DNA of 36,822 nucleotides from Rickettsiales bacterium (lineage in GTDB: Bacteria > Pseudomonadota > Alphaproteobacteria > Rickettsiales > SXRF01): contig CANHDY010000005.1 in NCBI GenBank assembly GCA_947459535.1, forward strand, positions 1 through 36,822, given 5' to 3'. Shown here in pieces: positions 8,541-21,408 of this stretch. The notes beneath the pieces were generated by a model. The model saw nothing but the letters and a program-made list of their open reading frames with translations. It did no database searches and was not told the origin of the DNA. Within the stretch, counting starts at the first letter, position 1. Every line of letters begins with the position of its first letter. Both the position numbers and the translations under genes were made by a program.

Positions 8541-8618
8541 TCTATTTCAATCTTCAATATTTTTTTACTAGCCATTACGACATTTAGCCCCTAACGTCAC
8601 TTTCCAAGGGAGTGCCGA

Positions 8619-9413
8619 ATGCGTCTGGTTGCCACCGCTCTTTTGATACAGTTACTACCCGCCATGGCAGCGGCAGGAGCATGGACTCAGCCAGCGGGTC
8701 GCAGCCAGCTGATTATCAGTGCAACCACCTACCACAGTGACAAGCGGCGTGAAGACTCAAGCATCACCACACGCCAGCCAACCTATCGCAAAACAGCCAT
8801 CAACCCTTATTATGAATATGGCCTGACCGACCATATCACGCTGGGAGCCAATTTATTCTTGATTCATGCCAGCCAGCAGGGAAGCAGTCAGACCGGCCTG
8901 GGCGACAGCGAGTTTTTTCTACGCCACCATCTACTGTCTTACAAGAGCTGGGTGTGGTCGATCGAGCCGATGATCAAGCTACCAAGCCCTCATTCGACCA
9001 GTGACACCCCGTCGCTTGGCGGCAATAGCGCGGATCTAGGCCTCACCACCAGAGCTGGCTATAGTTTTCGCGCTTTATCGCGCAGTCATTATCTGGATCT
9101 GGCCAGTGGCTACCACTACCGTTTCGGCAGCCCGCTCGACCAGATAAAGCTCTCCGCCGCACTGGGTATCGGTTTGTCCCCCAGCTGGTCTTTGTTATCG
9201 CAGCTTGATACTGTCTGGCGAGTATCCGAGCCACAGATAACCCGCTTTACCCAATCTCCGGCGGACGACTACAGCCTGATTAAAACCCAATTTTCAGCGC
9301 TATATCACCACAGCGAAAATACTCGTTGGCAAGTGGGATTATTCAGCCATCTGGACGGTCGTAACACCGGCCTTGGCACAGGTTTCATTGTATCCGCATG
9401 GAGGAATTTCTGA
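8619..9413 (+). CDS. Predicted outer-membrane beta-barrel protein
   Basis: Exported protein of 264 residues. A signal peptide (1-20, ending AAAG) is followed by alternating polar and hydrophobic strands with many aromatic residues. Examples are NPYYEYGLTDHITLGANLF, WSIEPMIKLPSP and YLDLASGYHYRFG. The chain ends AWRNF, and a terminal Phe is the usual signal for outer-membrane barrel assembly. The pattern resembles the Phenol_MetA_deg / small OMP barrel families, but I cannot assign a substrate. AAGGGAG lies 6 bases before ATG 8619. Its stop overlaps the start of the next gene, a membrane glycosyltransferase, as TGATG, so the two probably work together. One possibility is that it acts as an exit channel or anchor for the glycan. 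Confidence 0.65.
   Translation: MRLVATALLIQLLPAMAAAGAWTQPAGRSQLIISATTYHSDKRREDSSITTRQPTYRKTAINPYYEYGLTDHITLGANLFLIHASQQGSSQTGLGDSEFFLRHHLLSYKSWVWSIEPMIKLPSPHSTSDTPSLGGNSADLGLTTRAGYSFRALSRSHYLDLASGYHYRFGSPLDQIKLSAALGIGLSPSWSLLSQLDTVWRVSEPQITRFTQSPADDYSLIKTQFSALYHHSENTRWQVGLFSHLDGRNTGLGTGFIVSAWRNF
9400..9405 (+). promoter_or_regulatory. Ribosome binding site that fixes the glycosyltransferase start
   Basis: GGAGGA lies inside the end of the upstream barrel gene, 7 bases before ATG 9413. This favours 9413 over the in-frame ATG at 9398, which has no such sequence, and shows translational coupling through the TGATG overlap. Confidence 0.8.
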
Positions 9414-11281
9414 TGATCAAGCTGGGTGATATTCTGACCGGACGCGGCTGGATCAGCCAAGACATGCTGGCAAAAGCACTCCGTCTGCAGGAAAAGCAAT
9501 CAGGTAAATTGGGCGATACATTGGTGGCGCTGGGCGCTATAGGTCTTCGCCAGCTGCATCAGGCTTTGGCCGACCAACATGGGCTGCGCTACGTCAATCT
9601 GATGGATGAACCACCAGAATCGACGCTGCTGCACCAGATGCTCTCGCCCGAGCTGTGCCTATCGCGCAGATTGGTCCCATGGCGCCGCCATGAGGATGGC
9701 GGACTGATAATTGCCGTCACCGACCCGAGCGAAGAAACTAGAAAATGGTGCCGCAAACAATTTGGTAGCCTGACGCATCTGGTGATGACATCGCCGATGG
9801 ATATTCGCCTGATTCTCCAGCGCGAGTGTGGCCTGCAGCTTGAGCAGGCGAGCATTCTTTCGCTATGGCAGCGTCATCCTCTGCTTTCGTCTCGAAATGT
9901 CTGGTGGCCGGCGCAGCAGCGATGGTTTGCCGCGCTGGGGCTTATGATCGCACTGTGTTTACTGATAGCGCCATGGCAGACACTCGTAGCGCTGATGGTC
10001 ATTTTCAATCTTTTATTCTTTGCCACCTTGCTGTTTAAGAGCATTATTTTTCTTTCAGGACTGCGGTCGCAACCAACGCTTAACTGGCAGCAGATACTCG
10101 CGGATCTGGATGAGGCCAGCCTCCCCGTCTATACCATTCTTGTACCGATGTACCGCGAGAAAGAAAGCCTGCCGGGAATGTTGAAGTCGCTTGCCGCGCT
10201 TGATTATCCTGTCTCACGGCTGGATATCAAGCTGGTACTGGAGGCTGACGATGAAGAGACTTACCGCGCTGCCTGCGCTCTGAAACCGCCCTACCATATT
10301 GATATCATCCGCGTACCTGCCAGCCATCCGCGCACCAAGCCCAAAGCCTGCAATTATGCGCTTCGTTTTGCGCGCGGCGAATACATCACCATTTACGATG
10401 CAGATGATCGGCCAGAACCAACACAGCTGAAAAAGGCGGTGGCCATGTTTCGGCGCCTGCCGCCGGAAGTGGTCTGCCTGCAGGCCAGGCTGAACTACTA
10501 TAATGCTGGCGATAATCTGCTGACACGTTTCTTCTGCCTCGAATATGCGATGCTGTTTGGCACACTGATGCCCGGGCTTCAGCGCCTCGGCATTCCCATG
10601 CCGCTGGGTGGCACCAGTAATCATCTCGCGCTGGCGAAGCTGCGTGCGCTTGGTGAGTGGGATCCGTTTAATGTGACCGAAGATGCAGATCTTGGCACAC
10701 GCCTTTGCCTTGAAGGCGGCAAAACAGAAATGCTTGATTCCTTTACGCTTGAAGAAGCACCGATTCATGTCATGCCGTGGATACGTCAGCGTGGCCGTTG
10801 GATTAAAGGCTATATGCAGACCTGGCTGGTATATATGCGTGCCCCCATCATGCTTTATCAATCACTGGGGCTGGCTGGCTTTCTCGGTTTTCAGTTCTTC
10901 ATGGGGCTTTCCTGCCTGACATTTCTCGTGGCGCCGCTGGTCTGGCTGGTCAGCCTGCTATGGCTCACGGGATCGGTGCTGCATCACCTTCCTGAATGGC
11001 TGATAATGCTGGCGGTGGTCAATCTTGCATTTAATATCCTCAGCCACTGGATAATGGCCGCGGCCAGCCTGATACACCAGCATCACAGCAAATTTCGCCT
11101 GCTTTCAGGCGTGCTGTTTTTCCCGCTTTATCTGGCACTCCATTCCCTCGCCAGCTACCGCGCGCTATGGCAACTTTTTGTCGCGCCGCATCTATGGGAT
11201 AAAACTGAGCATGGCCTGAGCCAGCCATCCGCGCTAAATATCTCAGAAAATGAGGCGCTTAAAGTGAGAGTTGCGGCGTAA
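9413..11281 (+). CDS. Membrane glycosyltransferase (GT2) with N-terminal MshEN domain
   Basis: Predicted processive family-2 glycosyltransferase of 622 residues in the inner membrane. Residues 3-26 and 32-55 are two copies of the 24-residue MshEN pattern (R/K)LGxxLxxxGxxxxxxLxxxLxxQ, separated by the canonical 5-residue spacer. In MshE and NfrB this pattern binds cyclic di-GMP. Two helices follow (about 172-215). The GT2 domain (about 238-470) has [12 protein letters not shown] (329-332), TED (422-424, likely catalytic Asp) and QRGRW (459-463). Several C-terminal membrane helices follow. This is the plan of cellulose-synthase-like enzymes and of NfrB, although NfrB carries its MshEN domain at the other end. 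The partner barrel gene lies just upstream. The sugar donor and product are unknown. Confidence 0.9.
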
Positions 11282-14013: not shown

Positions 14014-16344
14014 TTATGCCCTGCTACTGCTGAACTGCAGCGCGCCAAGCAGCGACGACTGCAGGCTGCGCGCCTGAGCAATCACCGCAACCGCCGCATT
14101 CACCCGCACCGCAGACTGCGCATAGTTGATCGATTCCTCAGCAATATCAGTATCCACCAGCACGCTGCGCGCCTGGGTGAGACCCTCGATGGTGCTGCTT
14201 AAATTACTGCGTGCAAAATCAAGCCGCTGCTGCTGCGCCCCCAATGTGCTGATCGTGCCAAGCACCGCATTGCGCGCAATCGCAATCGCGCTTTGCGCCG
14301 CTGCAGCAGCGGACTGGCTGGCCACGCTTGGCAAAGTGCCGTTAAACAGTGCGCTGCTGCGCGCATCGTCAATCACCACATTCAATACATCATCACTGCT
14401 GGTACCAAGCTGAAAGCTTGCGCCATTATCGCTGGCGCCAAGCCGCAGTGCTGAGCGAAACGCCGATGCAAAGGCCGCCGCTGCTTCAGCATCCGAAAAA
14501 TTCTTCTCAACGGATCCATTTCTTAGAATCAGCTGTTTATTGCTATCCACGACACTACTGAACACCACCGTTTCATACGCGCCGATACGCCCGCCCAGCC
14601 CAGTTTCCGCGCTGAACTCTTCGCCATTAATCACCAGCTTGATACGCCCATCGGCGCTCGTGGGCGCGGTGACAGTGAGGCTATCAATACGCACATCGCT
14701 GAAATCTTTCAGCTGCAGCCGCGCTGAAGCGTCCAGAAAACTGCCCGACGCCACCACATTACTCACCGGACGGCTGTTGTAAAATGTCAGGGTAGAAAAT
14801 GCGGCATTCATGCGGCTTGCAAACGTATCCGCGCTGCTTTGATTAGTGACAGCCAGCCCGCCGGAAGCAAGCTGCACATCCAGATACCCGCCCTCATTCG
14901 AGCGCAGCCGCACGGTGGTATTGGTTGCTGGTGTGGTGTCGCTGATGGTGGCGCTGTACACACTGCTGCCCACTGTCAGATTGAGCGTGATATTATCGGC
15001 TGAGTTATAGGTCGCGGAAAAGCCCTGAATCGTGCCAATAAAATCGCCGTTATTGATCGCTGAAACATTCACGCCGGTTGTTGTGCCATTATTCAGCGTT
15101 GTTGTTGAGAGGGTGCCATTAGCAATTGTTTCAGCAATATCCAGTGCGGCGCCGCTGAGGTCGGTGGGGTTGCCCGGCGTTTGACTGCGAATCGTGAGCG
15201 TATTGCCGCTGATGGAAAACTCCAGCTGCCGCAGCCCATAATTATCGCTGCCCTGATACTGGCTGAGTTTGGCGACAATATTCTGGAGCGTCTCTTCCGT
15301 CGTTGCGCCAATTTGAATTTCCGTGGCAGTCGAGGCGCTATTGCTGAAGCTGAAATTAATCAGCCCGCCATTGCCATTGTCGATGCGCAGCTGCTCACCG
15401 GCAGTGACTGCACCATTCAGCGTTAGCGTTGCGCTGGCCGCGACCTGCGCCTGCGCGGTGACCAGCGAATCACCCACAATGCCCGCCGCGCGCGTGCTGG
15501 AAAACCCCAGCCCATTATCAGCGCCGCCGGAAAGCGTAAACACGTTGGTCACGCTGGTGGCACCGCCCGAGGTAGTGAATGTGGTGGTGGAGCCGGCTTG
15601 GTTAATCACAAACTGGTTGCCCAAGGTGCCGCCGGAACGTGCGGTGAGCGTCAGCACGTTGGTGCCGGTACGTTCAGCCCGAACGCCAGAAAGTGCGGTG
15701 TTTGTAGAATTATTGATGGCAAGCACCAGATTATCGAGCGTTGTTTGCGTGCTGCCGCCCACGGCAAAATCGGTATTCGCCGCCAGCGAAACACCATTCA
15801 GCACCACCGTCTGACCTGCGGTCGGGTTCGCACTGAAAGTGAGCGCAGCGCTTGCTTTGGTGGCTGGGGTTGATTGTGTCAGTGCTTTAGCTGCGCCGGA
15901 GAGTGCGCCGGAAAGCAGCCGAATCGCATTAAAGGAAGTGTTGCTCGCAATGCGATCAATCTCAGAAAGATACTGGCTGAATTGCTGCTGCAGAAATGCA
16001 CGGTCTGTGCTGGTGAGTGATGCGCTGTTGGCCTGCACAGCGGTGGCATTCATCTGGTCGAGTATCTCGCGAATCTGGCCAAGCCCGCTATCAGCGACCT
16101 GAAGCAGGCTGGTGCCCTGCGCGACATTGATGGAGGCTTGCTTCAGCCCGGAAATCTGCGACTGCATACGCGCCGCGATGGAAAACGACGCCACATCATC
16201 GCTGGCGCGCGCCAGACGATTACCGCTGGAAAGTCGCAGCGTCGAATCAGCCAGCTCGTCGCTGGCGCGGTTTAAGGAAAATAAAGCCGGAGTAAAAAAC
16301 GCTGAGGAACTCAGCGACGAAGAAATCGTCGTCATAGACATCAT
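14014..16344 (-). CDS. Large flagellin
   Basis: A 776-residue flagellin, much longer than the 270-500 residues usual in this class. The N-terminal D0/D1 helices (about 1-148) show RASDELADSTLRLSSGNRLARASDD and the SQYLSEIDRIASNTSFN signature. The C-terminal helices (about 690-776) show TISTLGAQQQRLDFARSNL and LVDTDIAEES. The central 540 residues are Thr/Ser/Gly/Asn-rich. They include modules at about 175-250 and 315-405 that look like flagellin-hook-IN units (an ING-like turn, 'ETLxNxVxxI', then an LTL/LTI strand). These regions form the filament surface. No other flagellar gene is in the window. The start is one of three nearby Met codons. A sigma-28-like promoter lies upstream. Confidence 0.92.
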   Translation of the reverse strand: MMSMTTISSSLSSSAFFTPALFSLNRASDELADSTLRLSSGNRLARASDDVASFSIAARMQSQISGLKQASINVAQGTSLLQVADSGLGQIREILDQMNATAVQANSASLTSTDRAFLQQQFSQYLSEIDRIASNTSFNAIRLLSGALSGAAKALTQSTPATKASAALTFSANPTAGQTVVLNGVSLAANTDFAVGGSTQTTLDNLVLAINNSTNTALSGVRAERTGTNVLTLTARSGGTLGNQFVINQAGSTTTFTTSGGATSVTNVFTLSGGADNGLGFSSTRAAGIVGDSLVTAQAQVAASATLTLNGAVTAGEQLRIDNGNGGLINFSFSNSASTATEIQIGATTEETLQNIVAKLSQYQGSDNYGLRQLEFSISGNTLTIRSQTPGNPTDLSGAALDIAETIANGTLSTTTLNNGTTTGVNVSAINNGDFIGTIQGFSATYNSADNITLNLTVGSSVYSATISDTTPATNTTVRLRSNEGGYLDVQLASGGLAVTNQSSADTFASRMNAAFSTLTFYNSRPVSNVVASGSFLDASARLQLKDFSDVRIDSLTVTAPTSADGRIKLVINGEEFSAETGLGGRIGAYETVVFSSVVDSNKQLILRNGSVEKNFSDAEAAAAFASAFRSALRLGASDNGASFQLGTSSDDVLNVVIDDARSSALFNGTLPSVASQSAAAAAQSAIAIARNAVLGTISTLGAQQQRLDFARSNLSSTIEGLTQARSVLVDTDIAEESINYAQSAVRVNAAVAVIAQARSLQSSLLGALQFSSSRA

Positions 16345-16536: not shown

Positions 16537-17424
16537 ATGCGCCTATCTAGAAATAATAAGCATATGAATCAATCGGATAATGGATTTACGTTATTGGAGC
16601 TTTCCATTGCGATAACCATCATCGGATTGCTGGTGGGAGGCGTGCTGGTGGGACAGGATCTCATCAAAGCTGCTCAGGTACGATCCACTGTTTCTCAGGT
16701 GCAGTCCTATGAAAGCGCCGCCATGGTGTTCAAAAATAAATATGGATGCCTGCCCGGCGACTGCAGTTCATCGAGCCAGTTTGGTTTCACGTCGGACTGT
16801 TCTGCACTGGGAGCCATCTGCGGCAATGGCACGATTGGCGGACGAACCAACCCAGCGCTGGATACGGACGAATACCGCGTGAGAGAATCATTTGATTTCT
16901 GGCTTCAGCTTTCTGAATCACAGCTGATAGAAGGTCGCTATGCCGGTGCAACAGCCGCCATTGCAGCCAATAATGCTGCGCCCGGCTATGCCTACCCGAC
17001 AACAAAAATCAGCGGCCAGGTTGGCTTGCTAGCAAGTGCGCTGGGCAACAATACCGGCGGACAAAACTATATAAGAACCAGCACAGGCACCACGATTGCC
17101 AGCAGTGCCTTTGCTACGAACCTGTTTCTTCCGATTATCAATTACATGCTCGATAGCAAGTTTGATGACGGGTTTCCAGATAGCGGTAAAATTCAGCTTG
17201 TCAGCGTCTATGAGGGTTGGAGCATGCCCAACCGCGAAATCGAAACGCTGGCAAAGAATGATGGCCTTTATCACAGCTATGGTCCGGCTGGCGCGACATC
17301 GCCCTACTGCGCTACAGATGATGATCCAAGCCTCTACAATGTGGCCAATGTTACGCCATCATTCAGCTATCCCGGCAGACCAGTCACGCCAAATTGCTCC
17401 ATCGCGTTTCAGATGAATTTCTGA
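16537..17424 (+). CDS. Type IV prepilin-like protein
   Basis: A secreted pilin or pseudopilin of 295 residues (286 if ATG 16564 is used). The processing motif is NG followed by FTLLELSIAITIIG, with the +5 Glu present, then a hydrophobic helix to about residue 45. The start at 16537 gives a 16-residue leader with several Arg/Lys, while 16564 gives a 7-residue leader without positive charge. I keep the longer form. The following KNKYGCLPGDC segment is typical of pilin-like proteins. The C-terminal globular part has several Cys residues (for example SPYC and TPNC near the end) that may form disulfides. No pilus assembly genes adjoin it, but a prepilin-peptidase-like gene lies 2 kb away. Confidence 0.85.
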   Translation: MRLSRNNKHMNQSDNGFTLLELSIAITIIGLLVGGVLVGQDLIKAAQVRSTVSQVQSYESAAMVFKNKYGCLPGDCSSSSQFGFTSDCSALGAICGNGTIGGRTNPALDTDEYRVRESFDFWLQLSESQLIEGRYAGATAAIAANNAAPGYAYPTTKISGQVGLLASALGNNTGGQNYIRTSTGTTIASSAFATNLFLPIINYMLDSKFDDGFPDSGKIQLVSVYEGWSMPNREIETLAKNDGLYHSYGPAGATSPYCATDDDPSLYNVANVTPSFSYPGRPVTPNCSIAFQMNF

Positions 17425-17530
17425 AACATCACCGTCAGTGCTGCTGATAAAAAACTTCCTGCTTGCATAGCAGCCATAAAAACGACTATTTTGCTGCACA
17501 TTTAAACATTTCCATCAAAAACATAGGCTT

Positions 17531-19351
17531 ATGTGTGGCATCCTTGGCATTACTGGGAACAAACCCGCAGCAGAGCGCATCCTCGAGGGGCTGCGCCAGC
17601 TGGAATATCGCGGCTATGATTCTGCGGGCATTGCCACGCTGACCCATGGCGGCATTGAACGCCGGCGCGCGCAGGGCAAGCTGAATCATCTGGCTGATGA
17701 GCTCAAAAAAGCACCTCTTCCCGGCACCACCGGCATCGGCCACACACGATGGGCAACCCACGGCGCGCCGAGCGAGACCAATGCCCACCCCCACGCCACG
17801 GATAAGGTCGCGGTGGTGCATAATGGCATTATCGAAAATTTCAAAGAGATTAAAGATCGCCTGATCGCGCGCGGCCACCGTTTCTACAGCCAGACCGATA
17901 CCGAAGTCGTGCCCGTGCTGGTAACTGATCTTCTGAGCGAAGGGCTAAGCCCGCGCGACGCCGTGATGCAGGCGCTGGGAGAGCTGCGCGGCGCCTATGC
18001 GCTGGCGCTTATTTTTGCGGATCATCCAGATTTAGTAATTGCTGCGCGAAACGGCCCGCCGCTAGCCATCGGCTATGGCGAGGGCGAGAATTACCTCGGT
18101 TCGGATGCGATTGCATTATCGCACCTCACCAGCCGCATCACTTATCTGGAAGATGGGGACTGGGCGGTCATCACCCCCGGTAGCGTCACCATCTATGACA
18201 GCAGCCATCAGGAAACATCCCGGCCAGTGCTGCAATCTGCATACAGCAGCGGCGCCATCGCCAAAGGCAATTACCGCCACTACATGCAGAAAGAAATTTA
18301 CGAGCAGCCGGGCGTGGTCGGCGAAACCCTCAAACTTTACTGCAACCCGGATACACTCACCACCACCCTGCCCACGCTGCCGTTTGATCTTGCGGCCATC
18401 CAGCGCGTACAGCTGGTGGCGTGCGGCACATCATACTATGCGGCCAGCGTCGCGAAATACTGGATAGAGTCGATGGCGCGCCTGCCGGTGGATGTTGATA
18501 TTGCTTCGGAATATCGTTATCGCCAGCCGATTATTGATAAAAACACGCTATGCGTTGTCATTTCGCAATCAGGCGAAACTGCCGATACGCTCGCGGTGCT
18601 GCGCATGGTCAAACCCATTCAGCCGACGCTGGCTATTGTCAACGTGCCGGAAAGCACCATCGCACGAGAAGCAGGCGCCGTACTGCACACCTATGCCGGG
18701 CCGGAAATCGGCGTGGCCTCCACCAAAGCTTTCACCACCCAGCTCGCCACGCTTGCCTGCCTGACGCTGGCACTGGCGGATGCCCGCAAATCTGCGCCAG
18801 TAGAGCAGCTGAAAGCGTGGTGTTCGCATCTGCTTGAAGTACCAGTGCTGATGAATGAAGCGCTGCACCATGATCACGCGCTGCAGGCACTGGCCAGCAA
18901 CCTGATGCATGCGCGCGATATGCTCTATATCGGTCGCGGCACCAGCTATGCCATCGCCATGGAAGGCGCGCTGAAAATGAAAGAAATTTCCTATATTCAT
19001 GCCGAAGCCTACGCCGCAGGCGAGCTCAAACATGGCCCCATTGCGCTGATTGATGAGCAGGTGCCGATTATGGTGCTCGCGCCCAGCGATAGCTGGTTTG
19101 AAAAAACCGCCTCCAACCTTCAGGAGGCCGCAGCGCGCGGCGGCCGCATTGTGCTCGTTACGGATAAAAAAGGCGCAGATGCCACAGGCGATATGGCCAG
19201 CGCCACCATCGTCATGCCAACATGTGACGCGTTTGTCGCGCCCCTGCTCTATGCGCTGCCCATGCAGCTGCTCGCCTATCATACGGCTGTACTCAAAGGC
19301 ACGGATGTTGACCAGCCGAGAAATCTTGCCAAGTCTGTCACTGTGGAATAA
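17531..19351 (+). CDS. glmS: Glutamine-fructose-6-phosphate aminotransferase (isomerizing)
   Basis: Makes glucosamine-6-phosphate from fructose-6-phosphate and glutamine, the first committed step to UDP-GlcNAc for peptidoglycan and lipopolysaccharide. The 606-residue length is standard. Cys2 (MCGILG) is the glutaminase nucleophile, with GHTRWATHG and the HNGIIENF loop in the N-terminal domain. Two SIS sugar-isomerase domains follow (CGTSYYA and SQSGETADT, then GRGTSYAIAMEGALKMKEI). The C-terminus NLAKSVTVE is the conserved end. The 106 bases upstream contain no obvious glmS riboswitch or ribozyme. It is convergent with the prepilin-peptidase-like gene, 12 bases away. Confidence 0.98.
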   Translation: MCGILGITGNKPAAERILEGLRQLEYRGYDSAGIATLTHGGIERRRAQGKLNHLADELKKAPLPGTTGIGHTRWATHGAPSETNAHPHATDKVAVVHNGIIENFKEIKDRLIARGHRFYSQTDTEVVPVLVTDLLSEGLSPRDAVMQALGELRGAYALALIFADHPDLVIAARNGPPLAIGYGEGENYLGSDAIALSHLTSRITYLEDGDWAVITPGSVTIYDSSHQETSRPVLQSAYSSGAIAKGNYRHYMQKEIYEQPGVVGETLKLYCNPDTLTTTLPTLPFDLAAIQRVQLVACGTSYYAASVAKYWIESMARLPVDVDIASEYRYRQPIIDKNTLCVVISQSGETADTLAVLRMVKPIQPTLAIVNVPESTIAREAGAVLHTYAGPEIGVASTKAFTTQLATLACLTLALADARKSAPVEQLKAWCSHLLEVPVLMNEALHHDHALQALASNLMHARDMLYIGRGTSYAIAMEGALKMKEISYIHAEAYAAGELKHGPIALIDEQVPIMVLAPSDSWFEKTASNLQEAAARGGRIVLVTDKKGADATGDMASATIVMPTCDAFVAPLLYALPMQLLAYHTAVLKGTDVDQPRNLAKSVTVE

Positions 19352-19363
19352 GGGCTGCTTAAC

Positions 19364-20134
19364 CTACCAGAACGTCGGTAGCACCGCGCCATAGAGCGCA
19401 CACAGCATCACCGCCAGCCCAAATGCCGCCGTGTAAGGCGCATGCATCAAACGCAGCTTGCCAACCAGCCAGAACAGCAACCAGAAGGCAGCGTAAAGCA
19501 CAAGAAATTGCGGCAGCAGCGCAGCGCCCACGCAAAGCCCGCCCACCACCAGCACCAGCGCCGGCGGCGGCAAGGTGTATATATGCCCGACCTTCACCAG
19601 CTTTTTTCGCCATATCAACGCTGCAATCAGCAGCGCATACAGCGCCCCCTCCACCATCGGATAAATACTGTGATCCATCAGTAGCCGCAGCATCGCGCCG
19701 GAAACCGCCACCACCACCAGCATGTTTTTTAGCACCAGAGCTTCATTGGCGTGAATCGCTGCAAGTACAATCAGAAAAACCCCAAGCATGGTGACCAATA
19801 GAAACTGCTCACCATAATTAAACTTGAAGTAAGCAAGCACCAATAGCGCGGCGACCAGCAGCTCCGTCCAGGTATGCGAAACAGGAAACGGCGTTTTGCA
19901 ATAACGGCAGCGATGCCGCAGCATCACTGCAGAAATTACAGGAAAAAGATCTTTGGTCGCAAGCGGCGTGCCGCAATGGCCGCAATAAGGCGGCTTATCC
20001 AGAATCAAGCGACCACGTGGCAGGCGGTGCACCAGACTGCAGGCATAATTCCCAATCGCAAAGCCCACGGCAATCGCCCAGATAACACCGCTGAGCACAT
20101 AGGCAATCTTGACATCCAGCACACCGTCAAACAT
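19364..20134 (-). CDS. Prepilin-peptidase-like protein lacking both catalytic aspartates
   Basis: A 256-residue polytopic membrane protein with the layout of the PilD/A24 family. The N-terminal segment IGNYACSLVHRLPRG is followed by a zinc-type C51xxC54-x21-C76xxC79 site, the same spacing as in PilD. A hydrophobic peptidase-like domain follows and ends in CALYG. The two active-site Asp positions appear to be His128 (in AAIHANEAL, where the family has IDxxxxxxP) and His184 (in VGHIYTL, where the family has GDVKL). Aspartyl prepilin cleavage is therefore unlikely. The protein might keep the methyltransferase or zinc-domain role, or have a new role. Its start overlaps the upstream EAL-like gene by one base. 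Confidence 0.8.
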   Translation of the reverse strand: MFDGVLDVKIAYVLSGVIWAIAVGFAIGNYACSLVHRLPRGRLILDKPPYCGHCGTPLATKDLFPVISAVMLRHRCRYCKTPFPVSHTWTELLVAALLVLAYFKFNYGEQFLLVTMLGVFLIVLAAIHANEALVLKNMLVVVAVSGAMLRLLMDHSIYPMVEGALYALLIAALIWRKKLVKVGHIYTLPPPALVLVVGGLCVGAALLPQFLVLYAAFWLLFWLVGKLRLMHAPYTAAFGLAVMLCALYGAVLPTFW

Positions 20135-21408
20135 CAGTTCGCCACCGCCAGTGTGGGTGTGACCAGCGAATCAATAAACCGCCCCTGAAAGAGTGTGATA
20201 CCAAGGCCATGGCCATAATCGACCGCCAGCTTATTATCACACCGGCATAAAATCACACGGTTATGCCCACAATCGGCGACCGCTTTCGCCAGCTCAACAT
20301 TCTGACGGCTGCTGAGATCCGATTCCACATCCGCGTTCCACTGCACTTTCAGCAAATCCAGCGACAATCTCTTGCGATCAATATTGATAAAGCTATTGAT
20401 GGTCAGCCCATCGAGGCACACACGATAGCCCATTTTCTGCGCCTGCGAACGAGCGAGTGTGAAGGCAGACATATCTGCAAACACATCCACCACCGGTAGC
20501 TCAAGCACCACCGATGATTTGATCTCCGGCGCCAGCATCGCATCAAACGCATCAAAATGTTCGGAAAGCAGCGTTTCTACATTCAGGTTGATGCTGACCG
20601 GATTCAGCCGCAGCGAAACCGCATCACGACGTATCAGATCCAGCACGCGTTCATCCATGGCGCAGCTGAGATATTTAAACAACCATCGATTCGTGAGCAT
20701 GTGGGAATCGGCCACCAACACCTGCCGAAGCTGTGGAATATGCAGGTAACACTCGTCAAACAGGCGGCGTGCAGAAAAATTCTGCCCCACGACACAGACC
20801 GGCTGGCGACGCATCACCGACGCCAGATCCACCGATCGAATCTCTGCTTCAATAGCCTCAAAAAGCGGCAGGCCAGCGCTCACCTGCGATGGCTGCGACG
20901 GCGCTGAAGCGGCCGGAGTTACTGTTCTCACAGATTCCAGCACAGGCGTGCGAGGCGAGGATTCTGTCTGGCGTTCTGGCTGTGTGGTTTTACGAGCTGC
21001 AGCGGCCATGCGGCGATTGCACATTTCGGCAAAACCATTCCAATCACGCGCAAGATCATAAATCGTGCAGAAATCAGGGTTTTCATGGCCTTCATCGGTA
21101 TAGGCGAGCGGATCGTCCATGTAGAGATACCGCAGCTGAAACACCAGCTTGTTCAGCACTGTTTTTTCCAGCTGCTGCACCAGCACAATAATGCCATGAT
21201 CCTGCAGCAGAAAAATACCGCCTTCATAGGTTTTGAGCAGGTCGTTAATCAGGTTAATAGCGATTTTCACCTGATATTCACTCTGATATTGCTCAAGCAG
21301 ATCGGAGAGCTTGAAGTGCACCGCTTGCCACCCCTGCGGGTCGCGGATGGTGCTCAGCATATCCACCAGCTTAGCTTCTGCAGAACGCATGATGATCGCG
21401 ATCGTCAT
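20134..21408 (-). CDS. Degenerate EAL-domain-like protein
   Basis: A soluble 424-residue protein. Residues about 10-135 form a helical N-terminal part I do not recognise, followed by a Pro/Ser/Thr linker (about 140-180). The C-terminal part (about 190-412) follows the EAL fold pattern, with VSINLN (Asn274), LEL (Glu303), CLDGL (Asp333), LLKVQ (Lys354) and LFQG (Gln408). The EAL signature itself is absent. The second Asp of DDFG is Gly, and the AEGVE segment reads LCRCDNK. Cyclic-di-GMP hydrolysis is unlikely, but binding or a protein-interaction role is possible. The start lies 3 bases after the stop of the AsmA-like gene, and the stop overlaps the next gene. Confidence 0.65.
   Translation of the reverse strand: MTIAIIMRSAEAKLVDMLSTIRDPQGWQAVHFKLSDLLEQYQSEYQVKIAINLINDLLKTYEGGIFLLQDHGIIVLVQQLEKTVLNKLVFQLRYLYMDDPLAYTDEGHENPDFCTIYDLARDWNGFAEMCNRRMAAAARKTTQPERQTESSPRTPVLESVRTVTPAASAPSQPSQVSAGLPLFEAIEAEIRSVDLASVMRRQPVCVVGQNFSARRLFDECYLHIPQLRQVLVADSHMLTNRWLFKYLSCAMDERVLDLIRRDAVSLRLNPVSINLNVETLLSEHFDAFDAMLAPEIKSSVVLELPVVDVFADMSAFTLARSQAQKMGYRVCLDGLTINSFINIDRKRLSLDLLKVQWNADVESDLSSRQNVELAKAVADCGHNRVILCRCDNKLAVDYGHGLGITLFQGRFIDSLVTPTLAVAN

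Follow-up and report, generated by a model that had tools for sequence, protein, structure and literature searches.

An XagA-XagB-like pair of a predicted outer-membrane β-barrel and an MshEN glycosyltransferase in a Rickettsiales bacterium: a likely cyclic di-GMP-controlled glycan secretion system

Within the window, by which we mean the whole analysed stretch of 36,822 nucleotides from a contig of a Rickettsiales bacterium, two overlapping genes encode a small predicted outer-membrane β-barrel and a membrane glycosyltransferase (GT) that carries an MshEN-type sensor at its N-terminus. Judged from these sequences and their relatives, the pair is probably a reduced form of the XagA-XagB exopolysaccharide synthase and exporter, and it likely acts as a glycan secretion system under the control of cyclic di-GMP (c-di-GMP).

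Organization of the two genes

The XagA-like barrel gene (8619-9413, forward strand) encodes 264 amino acids (aa); it is supported by the list of open reading frames (ORFs), an alignment of 21 orthologues, an AlphaFold2 model, and a profile match, and it is preceded by a likely Shine-Dalgarno region, AAGGGAG, at 8607-8612. Its product begins with a signal-peptide-like N-terminus, MRLVATALLIQLLPAMAAAGAW, and ends in F264. The XagB-like MshEN-GT2 gene follows on the same strand at 9413-11281, and its start overlaps the stop codon of the barrel gene (TGATG). The mechanical ORF list places this start at 9398 (627 aa), whereas the ATG at 9413, which gives a protein of 622 aa, is supported by a Shine-Dalgarno sequence, GGAGG (9400-9404), located 8 nt upstream and within the barrel gene. 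The barrel frame and the overlap had been proposed in an earlier sequence-only reading of this DNA, and their coordinates proved right. Both the overlap and the GGAGG inside the barrel gene are compatible with translational coupling. Scans for promoters and terminators gave signals near background.

The GT2 catalytic domain spans 10130-10801 (PF13641, PF13632, PF00535, and invariant alignment columns) and contains the motifs DADD (10397-10408, residues 329-332), TED (10676-10684, residues 422-424), and QRGRW (10787-10801, residues 459-463). Across 23 sequences from the window’s order these motif positions do not vary, except that D or E occurs at 331 and that G461 is variable. The AlphaFold2 model of the GT has a pLDDT of 89.9 and finds its top PDB match in BcsA (4p00).

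Relationship to XagA-XagB and to other glycan systems

Full-length homologues of the GT were found across many phyla in a scan of named genomes. One of them, Xanthomonas cucurbitae XagB (locus L034), shares 43% identity with the window protein over residues 4-614, and the gene immediately 5′ of xagB (L034 3900-4922) is matched by the barrel profile at 125.6 bits (E = 3.9e-37). Since the GT matches XagB along its full length and the barrel is homologous to the adjacent upstream gene, xagA, in the same gene order, we identify the window pair, by homology, as XagA-XagB. With XagA/XagB as its closest system, the architecture is thus not new. In X. oryzae pv. oryzicola, an rpfG mutant forms elevated biofilm, which is reduced by deletion of xagA or of xagB, and the Xag biofilm polysaccharide has been shown only genetically, in Xanthomonas (PMC3609779); a 2019 review still described the nature of the polymer as unknown (PMC8042644).

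The Xanthomonas xagABCD cluster differs in what it adds to this pair. Two genes follow L034 xagB in the positions of xagC and xagD, the fourth gene of the cluster being a GH113 glycosidase, whereas in the window’s order neither was found: the XagC profile, positive in four control genomes (three of them outside the model), matched none of 50 relatives, and the XagD protein was likewise absent from 50 relatives in a search that had no positive control. BcsB was also undetected by profile in all 55 genomes of the order, with a positive E. coli control, and a scan of the ten neighbouring ORFs revealed no exopolysaccharide genes, in agreement with the sequence-only reading, which had seen none next to the pair. 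Because BcsB, XagC, and XagD went undetected in 50-55 relatives, absences that at the genome-wide level are based on profile searches, we read the pair as a two-gene reduction of Xag. Elsewhere, the same GT is found with a BcsB-like gene (in Mariprofundus, Acidocella, Aquificota, and Hyphomicrobiales), and also with XagC, XagD, and a receiver protein whose GGDEF domain is degenerate. In the Xag clusters of several alphaproteobacteria this response regulator lies between XagC and the barrel (L046 8358-9341, with equivalents in L043, L047, L049, L057, L060, and L063). Its role as a dedicated diguanylate cyclase was considered for the Hyphomicrobiales clusters and rejected; the GGDEF signature is missing, and for this reason the gene was not counted as evidence. 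GH113-like matches in the window’s order were set aside as XagD candidates. They fall in long frames, mostly of 1070-1300 residues, away from the pair, and many relatives have one (for instance the frames of 1229-1250 residues at contigs C2, 14797-15585, and C22, 13365-13628, of genome G000, where these stretches are GH113-like); they are probably gene-transfer-agent or phage-tail (host-specificity) proteins.

Other systems, too, share parts with the pair. The Sfz/Sfb stalk clusters of iron oxidisers (PMC8250860, PMC4643136) contain a XagB homologue, Sfz2, which in Mariprofundus ferrooxydans PV-1 is 39% identical to the window GT (L072 5001-6851) and has a distant XagA-like barrel downstream (9354-10310); unlike the window pair, these clusters also have the BcsB-like Sfz1, XagC, and XagD. 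The BcsA/BcsB/BcsC system resembles the pair in its GT2 fold and its DxD, TED, and QxxRW motifs, as the top PDB match also indicates, but in the window protein MshEN replaces PilZ, a BcsB profile search of the genome was negative, and the pair includes no TPR porin partner. The GT was not assigned to the cellulose synthases: the CelA equivalog TIGR03030 scores 55.2 bits against a cut-off of 699.1.

A further comparison is with NfrB/NfrA of E. coli, to which the sequence-only reading had likened the pair. The two would work alike, as a c-di-GMP-activated MshEN-GT2 enzyme with an outer-membrane barrel, and the three common parts together with the overlap of the nfr genes (PMC8669469) could be taken to suggest an NfrB/NfrA-type system with swapped domains. 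However, NfrB has its GT first and its MshEN domain C-terminally, at 488-638, against 3-137 in the window GT; identity over the GT part is only 25%; and NfrA, a protein of 990 aa with TPRs, is matched by neither of the two barrel profiles, whereas XagB and XagA match far better. Domain order and the absence of detectable NfrA homology led us to reject membership in this family, and the suggested kinship did not hold up. We consider a domain-swapped NfrBA, already disfavoured, to be extremely improbable, although by analogy the working principle may be common to both.

The MshEN sensor

The N-terminus of the GT carries two tandem 24-residue c-di-GMP motifs (MshEN_N; residues 3-26 and 32-55, positions 9419-9577) that match the strict pattern (R/K)LGxxLxxxGxxxxxxLxxxLxxQ from residues 3 and 32 and are separated by a spacer of five residues (27-31). 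The NCBIfam model of the MshE-related c-di-GMP motif, NF053729, covers residues 3-55 with 51.5 bits (E = 6.5e-14) and thus exceeds its cut-off of 38, which argues against a chance occurrence of the tandem motifs. The MshEN_C subdomain follows at residues 56-137 (9578-9823; Pfam PF05157, 42.8 bits against a cut-off of 23.1), and the GT also matches the crystallised MshE domain 5htl (E = 7.7e-7). Both the perfect motif pair and the placement of an MshEN-type sensor ahead of a cellulose-synthase-like GT2 enzyme, as first read from the sequence, are therefore borne out by profiles and conserved motifs. The window protein retains each of the twelve contact and core positions that were compared (K3, L4, G5, L19, L23, and Q26; K32, L33, G34, L48, L52, and Q55), with K in place of R, so that it shows two motifs, the five-residue spacer, and the conserved contact residues of an MshEN c-di-GMP receptor. 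The relaxed 24-residue pattern of PMC5013675, which misses true members when taken literally, was left out of the statistics.

NF053729 finds a match in each of the 23 sequences from the order, and its cut-off is also passed by Xanthomonas XagB (41.2 bits) and Mariprofundus Sfz2 (56.5 bits). The N-terminus of XagB is a candidate, by sequence, for the c-di-GMP-binding protein of then unknown identity that a 2015 paper predicted to be encoded in xagABC operons (PMC4624772). Similarly, the N-terminus of Sfz2, described in the stalk-gene work as an EpsE-like domain (PMC8250860, PMC4643136), carries the c-di-GMP motif. In the genome from which the window comes, six GGDEF matches were counted, and one further MshEN protein was found, a PilB/GspE-like ATPase.

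It is conceivable that the MshEN domain is structural, or too weak a c-di-GMP binder, and that the synthase is controlled solely through its expression. This would agree with the transcriptional c-di-GMP control of the xag genes in Xanthomonas (PMC8042644), with the replacement of the last Gln of motif II by His in 11 of the 23 sequences of the order, with the score of a Hyphomicrobiales member (19.3 bits) below the cut-off, and with XpsE, which lost binding through changes in key residues (PMC5013675). Two genomes of the order, moreover, have orthologous GTs that lack the MshEN domain and measure 462-498 aa (G037, L144 7032-8417; G047, L145 6415-7908, reverse strand), which by their sequences are cases of sensor loss within the order. 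Yet the window protein keeps the twelve positions, its motif scores well over the cut-off, and substitutions at Arg9, Asp12, and Gln32 of MshE shift affinity less than fivefold, hydrophobic residues weighing more (PMC5013675). Given the matched motif model, the Gln kept in the window, and this tolerance of MshE, the window protein likely binds c-di-GMP, and we regard control by expression alone as unlikely. In both sensor-less genomes the barrel gene remains beside the GT, which indicates that the barrel goes with the synthase rather than with the sensor. In another genome (G013, L021), two overlapping frames (992-1498 and 1441-2829) encode the MshEN domain and the GT, so the sensor may there exist as a protein of its own, unless a sequencing frameshift is the cause.

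Fold of the barrel

The AlphaFold2 model built from the 21 barrel orthologues is a confident β-barrel (pLDDT of 88.8), as anticipated from the sequence. Its best fold match is the 12-stranded COG4313 channel Pput2725 (4rl8; 237 residues, 2.5 Å, Z of 24.3), followed by FapF, the exporter of biofilm amyloid in Pseudomonas (5o65; Z of 22.9), and by the oligosaccharide porins NanC and KdgM (Z of about 19). Both Pput2725 and FapF align over nearly the full length of the barrel, although at 12% identity. In a profile scan no Pfam family and no TPR matched the window barrel, and PF13557 was detected in only one of the 21 orthologues (1.9e-4); the model thus has the 12-stranded COG4313 fold while the family profile finds no match in the window protein. 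We therefore predict a 12-stranded COG4313/FapF-type channel that, in line with the earlier reading, has no TPR scaffold. This modelled fold does not in itself establish what the barrel does, and the partners differ: the window barrel is paired with a polysaccharide synthase, whereas FapF exports amyloid and Pput2725 is thought to be a hydrophobic importer.

The fold match opens a second alternative, namely that small hydrophobic molecules are taken up through the barrel as a COG4313-type channel, that the GT makes an unrelated product or glycosylates a lipid, and that their pairing reflects old co-transcription. The match to Pput2725 and the single PF13557 hit point in this direction; for the COG4313 channel, whose lumen is occluded by the N-terminus, import of hydrophobic molecules is thought likely (PMC4493636). 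On the other hand, FapF has the same fold and exports, and in the biofilm of the rpfG mutant the deletion of xagA phenocopies that of xagB (PMC3609779). The genomic context, described below, bears on this reading in both directions, and on balance we hold an uptake function to be improbable, favouring the Xag synthase-exporter.

Conservation and linkage of the pair

The sequence-only reading had made co-occurrence of the barrel and the GT in other genomes a point on which it should stand or fall. Orthologous GTs (E of 1e-60 or better) are present in 38 of the 55 genomes searched in the order, an uncultured lineage of alphaproteobacteria, and the barrel gene lies within 1.3 kb of the GT in 31 of these, on another contig in two, and was undetected in five. 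Counted over genomes, 33 have both, five the GT only, one the barrel only, and 16 neither (Fisher p = 1e-8, not corrected for kinship); in the sole barrel-only genome the barrel sits at a contig edge. Within the order, the expectation of co-occurrence was thus borne out. The locus order atpF-barrel-GT-rpmJ is retained in the order, with ATP-synthase (F0) genes upstream in 15 of 20 neighbourhoods and rpmJ downstream in 13 of 20, and the GTs of the order form one fully supported tree branch, shared with four unplaced alphaproteobacterial MAGs. The kept locus and the single branch point to an old two-gene unit that was vertically inherited within the order.

Beyond the order the association is weaker, and the expected co-occurrence was seen only in part: of the eight barrel-carrying genomes in the rest of the class, three place the barrel next to the GT or within a common cluster, another three carry the two genes unlinked, and the remaining two are without the GT. 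These unlinked and GT-less barrels speak for the uptake alternative. Against it, barrel and GT are neighbours in several phyla, with the barrel on either the upstream or the downstream side. In keeping with an outer-membrane role of the barrel, and with phyla assigned by ourselves, a barrel was found near the same GT at none of 22 loci from monoderm phyla versus 34 of 58 others (p = 3.5e-7), and at 0 of 14 versus 26 of 45 when only loci with full flanks are compared. A further argument against uptake comes from G086 (L149 3572-9986), where XagB is absent and the neighbours of the barrel are an NDP-sugar epimerase, a GH10-like glycosidase, and another membrane enzyme of the GT2 type; this context fits a general role of the barrel as an exit. 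G086 possibly has a second polysaccharide system that employs the same kind of barrel. The context in G061, the other genome with the barrel and without this GT, was uninformative.

Proposed mechanism and genomic surroundings

If the pair works as a reduced Xag system, c-di-GMP from a GGDEF enzyme of the host would dock in XagB between its two RLG/LxxxLxxQ motifs and thereby relieve or re-orient the cytosolic GT2 domain, as has been proposed for NfrB and is known in principle for BcsA. XagB would then polymerise a nucleotide sugar and thread the chain through the transmembrane channel that it forms itself; the chain would cross the periplasm without BcsB or a TPR scaffold and emerge from the 12-stranded XagA barrel to serve as an adhesive or biofilm polymer. 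The overlap of the genes could provide a matched supply of synthase and pore.

It is tempting to speculate that these two genes suffice, which would make for a very small synthase-dependent polysaccharide secretion system with its sensor fused to the synthase, a single 12-stranded barrel as its exit, and no TPR scaffold, BcsB-like subunit, or OPX protein; we put this forward tentatively, the odds being somewhat against it. The polysaccharide pores known so far have 16-18 strands, and a 12-stranded barrel is narrower. Were two genes indeed enough, XagA would represent a new class of polysaccharide exit channel. In any case, the small barrel suggests a testable route by which the Xag polymer could leave the cell, in a lineage with the system reduced to two genes.

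Further downstream in the window, a 776-aa flagellin, whose N-terminal and C-terminal flagellin domains are separated by a long middle part, is encoded at 14014-16344. At 16537-21408, 5-10 kb from the pair, lie genes for a pilin-like N-methylation protein, a prepilin-peptidase N-terminal domain, and a weakly matching EAL-domain protein.
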